This document shows, one piece after another, positions 39,134 to 63,610 of a stretch of DNA of 64,000 bases (position 1 is its first letter; every line of letters begins with the position of its first letter). The notes below the pieces were generated by a model, which worked only from the letters and a program-made list of their open reading frames with translations, searched no databases and was not told the origin of the DNA. Origin of the DNA: Yersinia frederiksenii ATCC 33641 (lineage in GTDB: Bacteria > Pseudomonadota > Gammaproteobacteria > Enterobacterales > Enterobacteriaceae); assembly GCF_000754805.1 (NCBI RefSeq), contig NZ_KN150731.1:824492-888491 (forward strand). Direction: 5' to 3'. Position numbers and translations under genes: made by a program.

Positions 39134-39604
39134 TTATGGAATAATTATGGTGTGAGCCATTTCTTTCATCTGCTTTTTATTATCAATAATCTCAATAATG
39201 AATTGATATGTCCCTGGTTGAACATTGAGCATTTTTAAATTCACCTCTTTTTTGCTGTTATTAACAAAACCAGTCTCATTATCCATTTCAATATTGTTAC
39301 TGTTGAAGATAGATGCGTTGTAATTTAACATTGCTTCTGATTCCAGCGAAAATGAAATGCCATATTCATAAATTTCCGCATGATAAAATGAATAATTTAA
39401 AGTGAGAGTAAAGTCAGGGAAGTCATCATGGCTATTATAATTAATTAAATAACGACTATCATGGCTTATCGCGGGTAGATATGTCTGGCCAGTATTAATG
39501 AAGTTGTGGGGTGTTATTGTACTGAAAGCCTTATCTAGGCTCGATGCCGATGGGGGAGCGAAAAGGACAAAACTGGAAAGTAAAAGGGCAGTGGTTTTTA
39601 GCAT
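39134..39604 (-). CDS. Small exported protein, unknown (member A)
   Basis: I do not recognise this 156-residue protein. It starts with a clear Sec signal peptide (MLKTTALLLSSFVLFAPPSAS). The mature part is rich in Asn, Tyr and Ser with no cysteine, and its C-terminal half has an alternating pattern of a beta-sandwich: MLNYNASIFN, VNLKMLNVQPGTYQFIIEII, AHTIII. This half aligns without gaps with the end of the protein encoded upstream (39635-40069), so the two are probably divergent duplicates. Low GC and an intergenic position between purL and glmY suggest acquired DNA. It is probably the second gene of a two-gene operon, 30 bp after the first. Confidence 0.78.
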   Translation of the reverse strand: MLKTTALLLSSFVLFAPPSASSLDKAFSTITPHNFINTGQTYLPAISHDSRYLINYNSHDDFPDFTLTLNYSFYHAEIYEYGISFSLESEAMLNYNASIFNSNNIEMDNETGFVNNSKKEVNLKMLNVQPGTYQFIIEIIDNKKQMKEMAHTIIIP

Positions 39605-39634: not shown

Positions 39635-40069
39635 TTAATAAGACAAATCCTCACTGGTCATATTCGTTAATGCCATATAGTAAGTTTTAATCACAAGTTG
39701 ATGCTGCGTATTTAATGATGTCACCACTAACCGATAGTTTCCGGCGGAAAAATCCTCTAATAGTAAAGTCATCCCCTTGGCACGATTATTAATCAGTGTG
39801 GCAGTTTGCGCTTTTTCATTGTTATATTGATCGTAGATATAAACTGTGATCAGTAAATTCTCTTGCGTTGTTACCGTCATGGGAATTTCCCCCTGACTAT
39901 TTTCGAGCCAATAGTTTGTTTGAATGCCATATACAGAAAAGTTATCAGAGCTGGGGTTTTTACTGAATGACATCAGGTTTACATGGAGGTAATCGAGGGG
40001 AGGCGGTTGGGCGGTGGCAAAGAAACTTGTCAGCAGCGTACCGATCAAAGCGATATAGCTGATTTGCAT
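39635..40069 (-). CDS. Small exported protein, unknown (member B)
   Basis: This 144-residue protein begins with a signal peptide (MQISYIALIGTLLTSFFATA, cleavage probably after ATA) and a Pro-rich start of the mature chain (QPPPLDYLHVNL). The C-terminal half (LLITVYIYDQYNNE, TLLLEDFSAGNYRLVVTSL, VIKTYYMAL) aligns position by position with member A at weak identity, sharing the NN turn and the G-x-Y strand. This pattern is typical of Ig-like extracellular beta-sandwiches. No cysteines, lipobox or anchor were seen, so it is likely periplasmic or secreted. No known function. Confidence 0.76.
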   Translation of the reverse strand: MQISYIALIGTLLTSFFATAQPPPLDYLHVNLMSFSKNPSSDNFSVYGIQTNYWLENSQGEIPMTVTTQENLLITVYIYDQYNNEKAQTATLINNRAKGMTLLLEDFSAGNYRLVVTSLNTQHQLVIKTYYMALTNMTSEDLSY

Positions 40070-40351: not shown

Positions 40352-40369
40352 TGTCGGGAAATTGCGACA
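40352..40369. promoter_or_regulatory. GlrR binding site 1
   Basis: TGTCGGGAAATTGCGACA is a perfect TGTC-N10-GACA, the known GlrR (YfhA) recognition sequence upstream of glmY. Confidence 0.92.
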
Positions 40370-40383
40370 ACAGAGATATTAAC

Positions 40384-40401
40384 TGTCTCAAAAAAGAGAC
40401 A
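40384..40401. promoter_or_regulatory. GlrR binding site 2
   Basis: TGTCTCAAAAAAGAGACA is a perfect TGTC-N10-GACA. Its centre is 32 bp (three helical turns) from site 1. Confidence 0.92.
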
Positions 40402-40446
40402 TTTAACTAATTGATTTATAGCTACTTTATTTTAATGGGTATTGTG

Positions 40447-40464
40447 TGTCGGGTAATAGCGACA
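40447..40464. promoter_or_regulatory. GlrR binding site 3
   Basis: TGTCGGGTAATAGCGACA is a perfect TGTC-N10-GACA, nearly identical to site 1. Its centre is 63 bp (six turns) from site 2, so all three lie on one face of the helix. Confidence 0.92.
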
Positions 40465-40539
40465 AAAGCGGGGTTAATCACTCGATTTGACTAATGTGTT
40501 TATGGCTAAAATTTGTTGATAAATTTTATTTTCATTAAT

Positions 40540-40569: not shown

Positions 40570-40586
40570 TTGGCACGCTACCTGCA
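40570..40586 (+). promoter_or_regulatory. Sigma54 promoter of glmY
   Basis: TTGGCACGCTACCTGCA has the -24 GG (40572-40573) and -12 GC (40584-40585) separated by exactly 10 bases and matches the consensus TGGCAC-N5-TTGCW closely. The start is expected at about 40598. Confidence 0.93.
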
Positions 40587-40597
40587 TTATCTCTATC

Positions 40598-40800
40598 AGT
40601 TGCTCATTCACTTTTTATGATAGTCCCGCCGTAAAGCGGAATATGCGCTTCATAAGCCACCGAATGATGCCTAAGACTGGTGCCTATCGTCCACCTAAAC
40701 CGATATTGTGTGAATGCACATTATCAAACATCGGACGACACGTTGAGTGAGGCGCCGCCTATGTCCTACTGTGATGAATGGTTCATCAATTTTGGACATG
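40598..40800 (+). ncRNA. glmY: GlmY small RNA (3' end uncertain)
   Basis: GlmY is an sRNA that sequesters the RNase adaptor RapZ, thereby protecting GlmZ and raising glmS expression when glucosamine 6-phosphate is low. The 5' sequence AGTTGCTCATTCAC resembles the E. coli start AGTGGCTCATTCAC and lies 12 nt after the sigma54 -12 element. Stem-loop 1 pairs TCATTC (40604-40609) with GAATGA (40662-40667) and TTATGA with TCATAA inside it. Stem-loop 2 pairs TCGTCC (40687-40692) with GGACGA (40733-40738). A third stem pairs ATGTCC (40761-40766) with GGACAT (40794-40799). No T run follows, so the natural 3' end is not clear. The location between purL and glrK is conserved. Confidence 0.85.
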
Positions 40801-40915
40801 TCTGGATGCTATTCGTCTCATCCTCCCGATGATTGCCTCGGCTTCATCAAACTGGAGACGATGTTTAAGGGCATCCACATATTCTGCGACGGGGCAATTT
40901 ATTGCCCCGTTGTCA
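40801..40915 (+). ncRNA. Unassigned structured RNA region downstream of GlmY
   Basis: Nested complementary segments predict a long hairpin: TGGATGC (40803-40809) with GCATCCA (40871-40877), TCGTCTC (40813-40819) with GAGACGA (40855-40861), and GATGA (40828-40832) with TCATC (40844-40848). Directly after it, ACGGGGCAAT and ATTGCCCCGT (40889-40910) form a 10-bp stem with a 2-base loop. This could be an extension of GlmY, the leader of glrK, or a separate sRNA. No promoter of its own was identified. Confidence 0.45.
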
Positions 40916-41036
40916 CATCTGATGGTTGTAAAAGACAGTTATTTTAAGCTAGATAATGCTCTCCATTTTCGCTGCAACTTATTATAAAAGCAGGTCTGAT
41001 GATGATTCTGACGATAATGGACCAGGCACATTAATT

Positions 41037-41073
41037 AAAAGCACTTCGCTCAATGCCAAGTGCTTTTTTTTTA
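41037..41073 (+). terminator. Terminator before glrK
   Basis: AGCACTT (41040-41046) pairs with AAGTGCT (41058-41064), preceded by A's and followed by nine T's. It probably ends the glmY-region transcript. glrK starts about 95 bp on, so partial read-through could feed glrK. Confidence 0.88.
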
Positions 41074-41166
41074 TCTCTACTTTGGGTATGACGGCGTTAA
41101 TTGGATAACAGGCATTGTAATCCTGACAAAGTCAGTTAGCATCACAACAGAATGATAGGTAATGAG

Positions 41167-42603
41167 ATGATTTCGTTGAAAAGATGGCGTTTGTTCCCTC
41201 GGTCTTTACGTCAATTGGTGCTCATGGCGTTTCTGTTGGTGCTACTCCCTTTATTGGTGCTGGCATACCAGGCTTATCAAAGTCTTGACCACCTGAGTAC
41301 CCAAGCGGCTGATATTAACCGCACTACGTTGGCTGATGCCCGGCGCAGTGAGGCTATGACCAGTGTGGCACTCGAAATGGAGCGCAGTTATCGTCAATAC
41401 TGTGTATTAGATGATGCAACACTGGCCAAGCTCTATCAGCATCAGCGTAAACAGTATGCTCAGATGCTTGATACCCATGCACCTATCCTGCCTGATGCTC
41501 GTTATTACCAGACTCTGCGTGACCTGTTGACTCAACTTTCTGATATTCAATGTAAAAACAGTGGCCCGGAACAGAATGCTGCCATCTTGCTAGAGCAGTT
41601 TTCTCGCTCAAATGCTGAAATGGTGCAAGCCACCCGTGATGTTATCTTCTCTCGTGGTCAGCAATTACAGAAAGATATCGCCGAGCGTGGGCAATTCTTT
41701 GGCTGGCAATCCCTATTGCTGTTTTTGGTCAGTGTGCTGCTGGTGGTGTTATTCACCCGTATGATTATCGGGCCAGTTAAAGGCATTGAACGAATGATTA
41801 ATCGTCTGGGAGAAGGGCGACCGCTGGGGAATACCGCCTTGTTCAAAGGGCCGCGTGAGTTACGTTCATTAGCACAACGTATTATTTGGCTTAGTGAACG
41901 TTTAGCCTGGCTAGAATCACAACGTCATGAGTTCTTGCGCCATATCTCGCATGAGTTGAAAACGCCATTAGCCAGTATGCGCGAAGGAACCGAATTGTTA
42001 GCCGATGAGGTTGCCGGGCCATTGACTCAAGATCAAAAAGAGGTGGTTGCTATCCTGGATAACAGTAGCCGCCATCTACAATTATTGATTGAGCAATTAT
42101 TAGACTATAACCGCAAGTTGGCTGATGGCCCCGGTGAACTTGAAAATGTTGAACTGGTCGAAATGGTCGAAGATGTGATTGCGGCCCACAGTCTGCCAGC
42201 CCGAGCAAAGATGATTCGTACTGAGACGGATCTTCAGGCGGACATTTGTTGGGCAGATCCAACATTATTGATGCGAGTATTAGATAATCTCTACTCCAAT
42301 GCGGTGCACTATGGCGAGGAATCCGGTACCATTTGGATTCGTAGCCGTCAGGTGAATAACCGCGTGCAAATTGATATCGCTAATACTGGGGCGTCGATCC
42401 CGGTATCAGAAGAAACCATGATATTTGAGCCTTTTTTCCAGGGAAGCCATCAGCGAAAAGGGGCCGTCAAAGGCAGCGGGTTGGGGCTGAGTATTGCTCA
42501 GGACTGTATCAAACGTATGCAGGGCGACTTGCAATTGGTGTCCGTTGATTACGCCCCAGTCTGTTTCCGTATTGAATTGCCATTAACCGCTGAGAATGAA
42601 TAA
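41167..42603 (+). CDS. glrK: GlrK (QseE) sensor histidine kinase
   Basis: GlrK is the membrane kinase of the GlrK/GlrR two-component system controlling glmY and, through sigma54, rpoE in some species. The 478-residue protein has TM1 near residues 15-35 (LVLMAFLLVLLPLLVLA) and a periplasmic domain of about 140 residues. TM2 lies near 180-202, followed by a HAMP region (IIGPVKGIERMINRL), a HisKA box RHISHELKTPLASM with His262, and the HATPase N, F and G boxes (LDNLYSNAVHYG, FEPFFQG, GSGLGLSI). ATG 41167 was chosen for its AGG site; an ATG at 41152 would add five residues. It is followed by qseG after 3 bp. Confidence 0.95.
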   Translation: MISLKRWRLFPRSLRQLVLMAFLLVLLPLLVLAYQAYQSLDHLSTQAADINRTTLADARRSEAMTSVALEMERSYRQYCVLDDATLAKLYQHQRKQYAQMLDTHAPILPDARYYQTLRDLLTQLSDIQCKNSGPEQNAAILLEQFSRSNAEMVQATRDVIFSRGQQLQKDIAERGQFFGWQSLLLFLVSVLLVVLFTRMIIGPVKGIERMINRLGEGRPLGNTALFKGPRELRSLAQRIIWLSERLAWLESQRHEFLRHISHELKTPLASMREGTELLADEVAGPLTQDQKEVVAILDNSSRHLQLLIEQLLDYNRKLADGPGELENVELVEMVEDVIAAHSLPARAKMIRTETDLQADICWADPTLLMRVLDNLYSNAVHYGEESGTIWIRSRQVNNRVQIDIANTGASIPVSEETMIFEPFFQGSHQRKGAVKGSGLGLSIAQDCIKRMQGDLQLVSVDYAPVCFRIELPLTAENE

Positions 42604-61832: not shown

Positions 61833-62327
61833 ATGAGACTGACTTCCAAAGGCCGTTATGCCGTGACCGCCATGCTTGATGTGGCATTACATTCCCAGGA
61901 CGGGCCAGTTCCTCTGGCAGATATTTCTGAGCGTCAGGGGATTTCATTATCCTACTTGGAACAGCTTTTTTCACGGTTACGCAAAAATGGCTTAGTGGCC
62001 AGCGTTCGTGGTCCAGGTGGCGGTTACTTGTTGGGTAAAGATGCATCAGCAATCGCGGTCGGTGCCGTAATCACTGCCGTTGACGAATCTGTTGATGCAA
62101 CCCGTTGCCAGGGTAAAGAAGGTTGTCAGGGTGGCGATCGTTGCCTCACTCATACCTTGTGGCGTGATTTGAGTGAGCGTATCAGCAGCTTCCTCAACAA
62201 CATCACATTGGCAGAACTGGTGAATAACCAAGATATTCTTGAGGTAGCGGATCGTCAAAATAACGATACGCGCCGTACGGCCAATGGCCGACCGCAAGAG
62301 ACGATTAACGTCAATCTGCGCGCATAA
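61833..62327 (+). CDS. iscR: IscR, Fe-S cluster-sensing regulator
   Basis: IscR is an Rrf2-family regulator that binds a [2Fe-2S] cluster and represses isc when clusters are plentiful; apo-IscR activates other genes. The 164-residue protein has [19 protein letters not shown], wing [10 protein letters not shown] and the cluster ligands Cys92, Cys98, Cys104 and His107 ([17 protein letters not shown]). In Yersinia IscR also controls the type III secretion regulator lcrF. ATG 61833 is the family start; an upstream in-frame codon at 61770 would fall in the operator. Confidence 0.97.
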
Positions 62328-62380
62328 GCAGAATCTGCGGAATTTTACGTTTTGGAAGTGATGTACGGAGCATAAGAGCA

Positions 62381-63610
62381 ATGACCGAATCAAAAGTAAA
62401 GACACCGATCTATCTGGATTATGCAGCCACGACCCCGGTAGATCCTCGTGTCGCTGAAAAAATGATGCAGTACCTGACTCTGGACGGCATTTTCGGTAAC
62501 CCGGCCTCTCGTTCTCATAAGTTCGGCTGGCAGGCAGAAGAAGCTGTTGATATTGCACGTAATGATATTGCCGCATTAGTCGGTGCAGACCCTCGCGAGA
62601 TAGTCTTCACCTCTGGTGCCACTGAGTCTGATAACCTCGCAATTAAAGGTGCAGCTAACTTCTACCAGAAGAAAGGCAAGCACATCATCACCTGTAAGAC
62701 CGAGCATAAAGCTGTGCTGGATACCTGTCGCCAATTGGAGCGTGAAGGCTTCGAAGTGACTTATCTGGCACCGCAGTCTAACGGTATTATCGACCTGAAA
62801 CAGCTGGACGCGGCAATGCGTGAAGATACCATTTTGGTTTCTATCATGCATGTGAACAATGAGATCGGTGTGGTGCAGGATATCGCTGAAATCGGCGAAA
62901 TGTGCCGTAGTCGCGGAATCATTTTCCACGTCGATGCTACTCAGAGCGTGGGTAAATTACCGATTGACCTGAGCCAATTAAAAGTCGATTTGATGTCCTT
63001 CTCTGCCCATAAAGTTTATGGCCCGATGGGCATTGGCGCGCTGTTTGTTCGTCGTAAACCACGTATTCGCATCGAAGCTCAGCAGCACGGTGGTGGTCAT
63101 GAACGTGGCATGCGTTCTGGTACCTTGCCAGTGCACCAGATCGTTGGCATGGGTGAAGCTTACCGTATTGCCAAAGAAGAGATGGAAAGTGAAGCTGCAC
63201 GCCTGCGCTCGTTGCGTCTGCGTCTGTGGAACGGTATCAAAGATATCGAAGAAGTTTACCTGAATGGCGATTTAGAGAATGGCGCACCTGGCATTCTTAA
63301 CGTCAGCTTCAACTATGTTGAAGGGGAATCGCTGATTATGGCATTGAAAGATTTGGCTGTTTCATCTGGTTCAGCCTGTACCTCCGCGAGTCTGGAACCT
63401 TCTTATGTGTTGCGTGCGTTGGGTATGAACGACGAACTGGCTCACAGTTCAATTCGTTTCTCTCTGGGGCGTTTCACCACAGAAGAAGAGATCGACTACG
63501 CCATTGCACTGGTACGTAAATCCATTGGTCGTCTGCGTGATTTGTCTCCGTTATGGGATATGTTCAAACAGGGCGTGGATATCAGCAGCATTGAATGGTC
63601 TCACCATTAA
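62381..63610 (+). CDS. iscS: Cysteine desulfurase IscS
   Basis: IscS takes sulfur from L-cysteine as an enzyme persulfide and delivers it to IscU, TusA and ThiI. The 409-residue PLP enzyme has [30 protein letters not shown], a [10 protein letters not shown] substrate loop, the PLP Lys211 in [10 protein letters not shown], and the active Cys333 in [13 protein letters not shown]. The start at 62381 ([14 protein letters not shown]) is five residues longer than in E. coli; no in-frame start codon exists at the E. coli position. It lies 53 bp after iscR and 30 bp before iscU. Confidence 0.97.

Follow-up and report, generated by a model that had tools for sequence, protein, structure and literature searches.

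How long is GlmY in Yersinia, and what lies between it and glrK? In Escherichia coli this small RNA is under 200 nt, as a preliminary description of the present locus had stated (the MG1655 annotation gives 184 nt), and a short linker joins its stem-loop II to the terminator hairpin. The stretch of Yersinia frederiksenii ATCC 33641 DNA analysed here (64,000 nt, termed the window; positions count from its first letter, and features are on the plus strand unless stated otherwise) departs from that form. Stem-loop II is not followed at once by a terminator hairpin at ~184 nt; hairpins H3 and H4 intervene, and there is a further U-run terminator. The preliminary description left a choice between a longer GlmY precursor and a second structured RNA next to GlmY. 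The sequence favours a longer GlmY, be it a precursor or a stable long RNA.

The glmY locus and the extent of its transcript

The locus is built like that of E. coli, with the same stem-loops I and II (RF00128), a terminal hairpin and the order purL-glmY-glrK. Rfam matches GlmY at 40598-40761 with 164.8 bits, against a gathering score of 33; stem-loop I occupies 40601..40670 (60.5 bits with model R3) and stem-loop II 40679..40756 (78.7 bits with model R2). The downstream neighbour, outside the RNA, is an ORF at 41152..42603, which we take to be glrK (qseE) from synteny with E. coli. Upstream are three TGTC...GACA palindromes (~40352-40372, 40384-40404 and 40447-40466, spanning 40352..40466), presumably GlrR/QseF activator sites, whose pairwise identities among 25 genomes are 85.2, 91.4 and 83.6%, against 49-50% in nearby non-site DNA. 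The putative assignment to GlrR leans on PMC4585118. A sigma54-type promoter is recognized by pattern: TGGCACG-N5-TGCA at 40571..40586 is the sole exact match within the 64 kb, where 0.07 would be expected, and 40570-40590 shows 88.1% identity in the 25 genomes. E. coli glmY is under sigma54 control (PMC6075780). A simple scan for promoters of the sigma70 type found none within 40590-41160.

Past GlmY proper, three well-formed hairpins had been proposed, and folding each singly against 200 dinucleotide shuffles bears this out. H3 (40760..40800, z -3.8) consists of an outer stem, a 5x5 internal loop and an inner stem, and stands in place of a second stem-loop I. H4 (40803..40877, z -3.6), which appears to be a paralogue of stem-loop II, folds with the three nested pairing segments originally read by eye. 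H5 is GC-rich, with a stem of 12 pairs (z -6.7); the third hairpin of the preliminary description is real, but its limits of 40889-40910 were too short, and H5 spans 40886..40913. It stands where E. coli GlmY has its terminator stem-loop III, a correspondence that had been overlooked. The short linker between H4 and H5 (ACATATTCT, 40877..40885) corresponds in place to the linker that joins stem-loops II and III of E. coli GlmY, and by that analogy it may be a site for RNase E. Taken as one unit, 40598-41078 has a folding z of -5.1, and folding finds no structure in 40920-41035 (z +0.2). A search of 40756-40925 with Rfam 15 gave nothing above cut-offs, the best score being 13 bits (E 1.5), far below its cut-off. 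As the RF00128 match ends at 40761 and Rfam has nothing beyond it, transcriptome studies of these genera may overlook or misassign sequencing reads that fall within 40762-41072.

Where does the transcript end? The absence of any T-run terminator before about 41073, some 475 nt from the sigma54 start, was read correctly: the first U-run terminator is an intrinsic one at 41037..41072, a hairpin followed by 9 T (z -6.7), which was missed by a simple terminator pattern scan and caught by a second, separate scan. All 25 genomes of the genus, this one included, have a T-run hairpin here whose stem is likewise of the AAGCACTT type. Similar T-run hairpins follow H5 in six loci of other genera that carry H3-H4, hereafter the module, with the AAGCACTT stem in L117, L119, L120, L121 and L132 and AGGCACTT in L133. 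In seven loci without the module a related T-run hairpin comes soon after stem-loop II (AAGCACTT in L110 and L116, AAGGCACTT or AAGGTACTT in L089, L097, L106, L107 and L114). Because module-less loci share a related terminator at that point, the comparison suggests that the U-run terminator is an old feature of GlmY in this part of the order, and that the module was inserted ahead of it. If the terminator is that of GlmY, the RNA of the window would therefore be 475 nt, in line with the first estimate. A clear terminator after H5 is not seen in the Serratia-like loci L036, L044, L048 and L057, and L040 offers a weak candidate only. In L037, L038 and L061 a short T run lies at the end of H5 or just after it, and here H5 may be a terminator in its own right.

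Across the genus glrK lies 517 to 1902 nt from the GlmY 5' end, and the start of H4 is steady at 205-209 nt. In L010, probably Yersinia rohdei, a transporter-like gene (family judged by eye; 212-1183 of that locus), co-oriented with GlmY, lies between the terminator and glrK; GlmY, the module and the terminator remain together despite the extra gene. Given the variable distance, the terminator in 25 of 25 genomes and the extra gene of L010, the block belongs with glmY and not with glrK. The anatomy of the transcript, a long GlmY that would run through H5 to the terminator, is well supported by these sequence comparisons.

Conservation and distribution of the hairpins

A DNA search found the glmY region in all 25 genomes of the genus, including that of the window. 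The best match ends within H5 or at its end (query end at or before 401, i.e. 40920) in 11 of these and reaches toward glrK in 14, and GlmY through H5 can be aligned in every one, with an altered H5 sequence in L023-L025. Mean pairwise identity is 92.9% for stem-loop I, 91.6% for stem-loop II, 91.5% for H3, 95.7% for H4 and 83.5% for H5. As these values are GlmY-like and non-site upstream DNA has 49-50%, H3 and H4 are under constraint equal to that on GlmY proper.

An element ahead of the terminator (AAAAGCAGGTCTGATGATGATTCTGACGATAATGGAC..., 40985..41034) is kept in most Yersinia loci, though not in L023-L025. Within it is a possible ORF of 11 codons (40999-41034) with a GCAGG-like sequence upstream, and most of the 25 loci, the L023-L025 group excepted, allow a similar short peptide to be read. 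In eight loci (L009, L011, L013-L015, L017, L021 and L022) longer spacers open alike directly after H5, with ATAtCCC or ATACC(C), then TCATA or CCATA, and in several of them GCTGCATG next; this shared start looks as if a repeat had been inserted.

Is the block confined to Yersinia? With 40757-40920 as the query, a DNA search across the order (295 genomes) matched two genomes only, both Yersinia, so that by sequence alone the block looks limited to the genus. Reading the DNA downstream of GlmY showed otherwise. GlmY was found in 121 of 198 genomes, and the downstream DNA of 109 GlmY loci was examined (30 loci and 80 more, minus L041, which the anchor pattern missed; its genome, G336, has a strong match to model R1). 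The H4 motif is present in 17 of the 109. Three of these are Yersinia; in the remaining 14 the order H3-H4-H5 and the fold are kept, and the sequence is much changed. Counts of module loci leave out L033-L035, which are duplicates of the genus set.

Run on the GTDB family (392 genomes from 154 genera), model R1, a covariance model of the H3-H4 module, matches 40 genomes in 17 genera, with one match per genome. In G363, which has the lowest score (29.5 bits), the match is not at the GlmY of the genome and is probably false, and those in G507 and G636 are unplaced with respect to glmY. A genome-wide pattern scan also gave 40 matches, and GlmY precedes 38 of them; the carriers are Yersinia, Serratia, Budvicia, Limnobaculum, Leminorella, Enterobacillus and two further Enterobacteriaceae. 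Of the two matches without GlmY before them, L154 is truncated at the edge of its record, and L182, which is in a Bacteroidetes MAG and has no GlmY beside it, was rejected as a chance match. When R1 was run on 100 loci (L036-L136 without L041), 16 matches above 41 bits fell at the module position, including the diverged L065 (51.5 bits) and L100 (41.2 bits), and L063 gave a doubtful 17-bit match there. The modules of L065 and L100, and the doubtful one of L063, are possibly intermediates or decaying copies. Since only 17 of the 154 sampled genera carry the module, GlmY works elsewhere without it; E. coli MG1655 GlmY, for example, has no H3-H4-like hairpins between stem-loop II and the terminator.

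Are these hairpins kept as structures? In an alignment of 37 distinct module loci (A1, over H3-H4), 97.6% of cells are paired, 11 pairs are altered on both sides and 45 cells are changed on both sides, against 9.8 in shuffles; none of 500 shuffles reaches any of these values, although relatedness among the sequences inflates such tests. The signal is lost, at far lower values, in controls with slid partners. A measure of further pair types is not special, as 54 of 500 shuffles reach it. Compensatory changes occur across genera in both H3 and H4; the constancy of the 5' strand of H4 is partly a product of selection of the loci, because they were picked by a motif on that strand. H5 is conserved in another manner. 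A hairpin begins 6-11 nt past H4 in 39 of 39 module loci, with energies of -11.0 to -23.7 kcal/mol that carry no per-locus shuffle comparison, and the H5 sequences are unrelated between groups of loci, yet the fold is kept. Covariation over 40800-40915, whose absence the preliminary description would have held against itself, is thus present in H4, and the fold of H5 survives a complete change of sequence.

Origin of H4 and H3

How did H3 and H4 originate? Stem-loop II and H4 looked alike side by side, a likeness that the preliminary description had overlooked, and the idea that H4 is a copy was tested for that reason. Model R2 is a covariance model whose input was limited to 76 stem-loop II sequences (A2), with H4 excluded. 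In an unfiltered search of the 64-kb window it places stem-loop II first and H4 second (23.5 bits, E 5.5e-4, 40805-40875), the next best score being 10.8. Of 27 module loci, 20 yield an H4 match with R2 and seven do not; besides stem-loop II, the model has no other match on the sense strand. In a whole-genome search with R2, where the background rises to 20.6 bits, H4 was reported in one of 14 genomes, presumably an effect of the first-look filter. The converse comparison agrees in direction: outside modules R1 has 48 sense-strand matches, 47 of them on stem-loop II (best 21.7 bits) and one at the module position of L063, with 15 further matches on the opposite strand. In each of the 39 loci the alignment of stem-loop II with the H4 of that locus outscores shuffles (z 2.2-5.6, mean 4.05). 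A sequence-only nhmmer profile scored three of 18 H4s, and the link between stem-loop II and H4 rests for this reason on structure-aware models and pairwise alignments. These comparisons give good support to the conclusion that H4 is a diverged paralogue of GlmY stem-loop II.

Part of the likeness has a wider source. Alignments of stem-loop I with H4 are intermediate (mean z 1.45), and in eight GlmZ-like loci R1 gives weak matches, with up to 20.4 bits on stem-loop I, close to its best of 21.7 on stem-loop II. Because R1 also matches stem-loop I of GlmZ-like loci, part of the likeness of H4 reflects a fold common to these stem-loops, hinting that stem-loops I and II and H4 share one ancestral repeat. 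In the GlmZ-like loci L146, L147 and L148, stem-loop I, near 307-358, matches the H4 part of R1 with 14.4 to 20.4 bits. One stretch sets H4 apart: ACGUNGAGU is present in 131 of 131 stem-loop II sequences and missing from 38 of 39 H4s, with a remnant in L133. With the loss of ACGUNGAGU, H4 may not be used in the way that stem-loop II is.

Did H3 arise in parallel as a copy of stem-loop I? This was tested three ways and is unsupported: model R3, for stem-loop I, does not recognise H3, and the alignment of stem-loop I with H3 indicates no kinship (mean z 0.82). By sequence, H3 is an added hairpin in the stem-loop I position, without shown kinship to it.

A possible second docking unit and rival explanations

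What could such an extension do? In E. coli, the two dimers of C-terminal domains in the RapZ tetramer each take one stem-loop of GlmZ, one dimer stem-loop I and the other dimer stem-loop II; stem-loop III has no part in RapZ binding (PMC9841335). E. coli GlmY is trimmed from 184 to ~148 nt, and the trimmed form sequesters RapZ (PMC7073468). All 13 module genomes that were tested have a RapZ-like gene (PF03668), and the genome of the window carries a GlmZ-like locus elsewhere. In the model proposed here, stem-loop II was duplicated to give H4, and H3, a hairpin of two stems, was added in place of a second stem-loop I. RNA polymerase starting at the sigma54 promoter would read stem-loops I and II and then H3, H4 and H5; in Yersinia it would continue to the U-run terminator, giving a primary RNA of ~475 nt, of which ~316 nt extend to the end of H5. 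Trimming near H5, comparable with that of E. coli GlmY, would leave a stable form with four stem-loops. A RapZ tetramer would also bind H3-H4, so that one GlmY could sequester two tetramers, or one more tightly, and more GlmZ would be freed per GlmY transcript for glmS activation.

Considered as a separate claim, H3-H4 is probably a second docking unit for RapZ. The reading as a whole, in which GlmY of the Yersinia, Serratia and Budvicia group is extended by the module, H4 derives from stem-loop II and RapZ docks on H3-H4, has in our estimate about an even chance of being right. The further proposal that GlmY of Yersinia, Serratia, Budvicia and their kin acts as a bivalent decoy, with I-II and H3-H4 binding two RapZ tetramers or cross-linking them, is more tentative and would fall somewhat short of that. 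Base pairing between the block and the glmS leader was not significant, nor was that of the GlmZ positive control.

Might H3-H4-H5 instead be a separate small RNA, cut from the GlmY primary transcript and having its own targets or protein partner, so that its likeness to stem-loop II tells of origin only? The H3-H5 fold is self-contained and ends in a strong hairpin, and the loss of ACGUNGAGU from H4 in nearly every locus fits such a change of role. The scan for sigma70-like promoters across 40590-41160 gives it no start of its own, however, and with ~3 nt between stem-loop II and H3 in the window there is little room for a cut. The block is met away from GlmY only as the chance match of L182 and as weak or unplaced matches, and the loop of H3 is variable and offers no obvious conserved pairing seed; we regard a separate RNA as unlikely. 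A passive role, in which H3-H5 would be a nuclease-resistant tail or a platform that sets GlmY half-life or 3' trimming and does not bind RapZ, would suit an H5 that is kept as structure and not as sequence, and E. coli GlmY is likewise trimmed at its 3' end (PMC7073468). From such a tail one would not expect H4 to be more conserved than stem-loop II itself, nor to be a copy of it, which makes this explanation distinctly unlikely.

The block could also be a leader or attenuator of glrK and no part of GlmY, given its place between the two genes, the glmY-qseE-qseG-qseF operon detected by RT-PCR in Proteus mirabilis (PMC8745638) and the Serratia-like loci in which no clear terminator follows H5. 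This is very improbable, as the intrinsic terminator before glrK is conserved throughout the genus, L010 has a co-oriented gene between that terminator and glrK, and H4 keeps its distance from the GlmY start while glrK does not; in E. coli, moreover, there is virtually no read-through (PMC6075780). Are the hairpins an accident of some other kind? They might have come together by chance, belong to a mobile palindromic repeat or lie in coding DNA: one frame from 40772 looks protein-like in the window, and palindromic repeats do occur in Yersinia intergenic DNA. The mobile repeat was rejected on the single R1 match per genome and the coding reading on single-base indels that break the frame in L023, L024 and L025, and the folding z-scores and compensatory changes speak against chance, which leaves this group of explanations barely credible.

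To which known systems does an extended GlmY with an H3-H4 docking unit compare? Sponges of CsrA, such as CsrB and RsmZ, are decoy RNAs in which a protein-binding hairpin is repeated, there as many short GGA hairpins; by analogy, the present RNA would be a decoy with a single duplication of one structured stem-loop and with putative protein binding. Tandem riboswitch aptamers (e.g. tandem SAM-II/SAM-V) also carry a duplicated RNA receptor domain in one transcript, but they are cis-acting ligand sensors and not trans-acting, protein-sequestering RNAs. The GlmY homologue GlmZ likewise has two stem-loops bound by RapZ, with an RNase E site between its stem-loops II and III (PMC9841335); the eight GlmZ-like loci matched weakly by R1 have no H3-H4 module.

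GlmY, GlmZ and RapZ serve as a model for RNA decoys and for the control of cell-envelope precursors, and a second docking unit, if real, would change the dose response of the GlmY-RapZ-GlmZ-glmS switch. The specificity of RapZ for GlmZ has been explained by a protein symmetry that matches two RNA stem-loops (PMC9841335). A GlmY with a duplicated stem-loop II would be a natural test of this symmetry match, be it in stoichiometry, in avidity or in the set point of glmS.

We call the GlmY that bears H3-H4 a new form of a known RNA, for which an earlier published size is possible. For transcription of Yersinia glmY the key study is Gopel 2011 (NAR), and a published size may stand there or in Koo 2011; the excerpts of the literature searched hold no mention of a longer GlmY or of a duplicated stem-loop, and those of PMC4585118, PMC4376681, PMC3493969, PMC4773443, PMC6635623, PMC12112432 and PMC4114697 do not state the length of Yersinia GlmY, nor did a term search of PMC3770706 bring it up.

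Two observations concern other parts of the window. Between purL and glmY lie two small minus-strand ORFs (39134-39604 and 39635-40069) whose starts look, by eye, like signal peptides, and one of them is weakly similar to the third domain of GlcNAc-binding protein A (25.6 bits against a Pfam cut-off of 27). At 62228-62410 Rfam matches the IscS-1 thermometer family with 222.6 bits.
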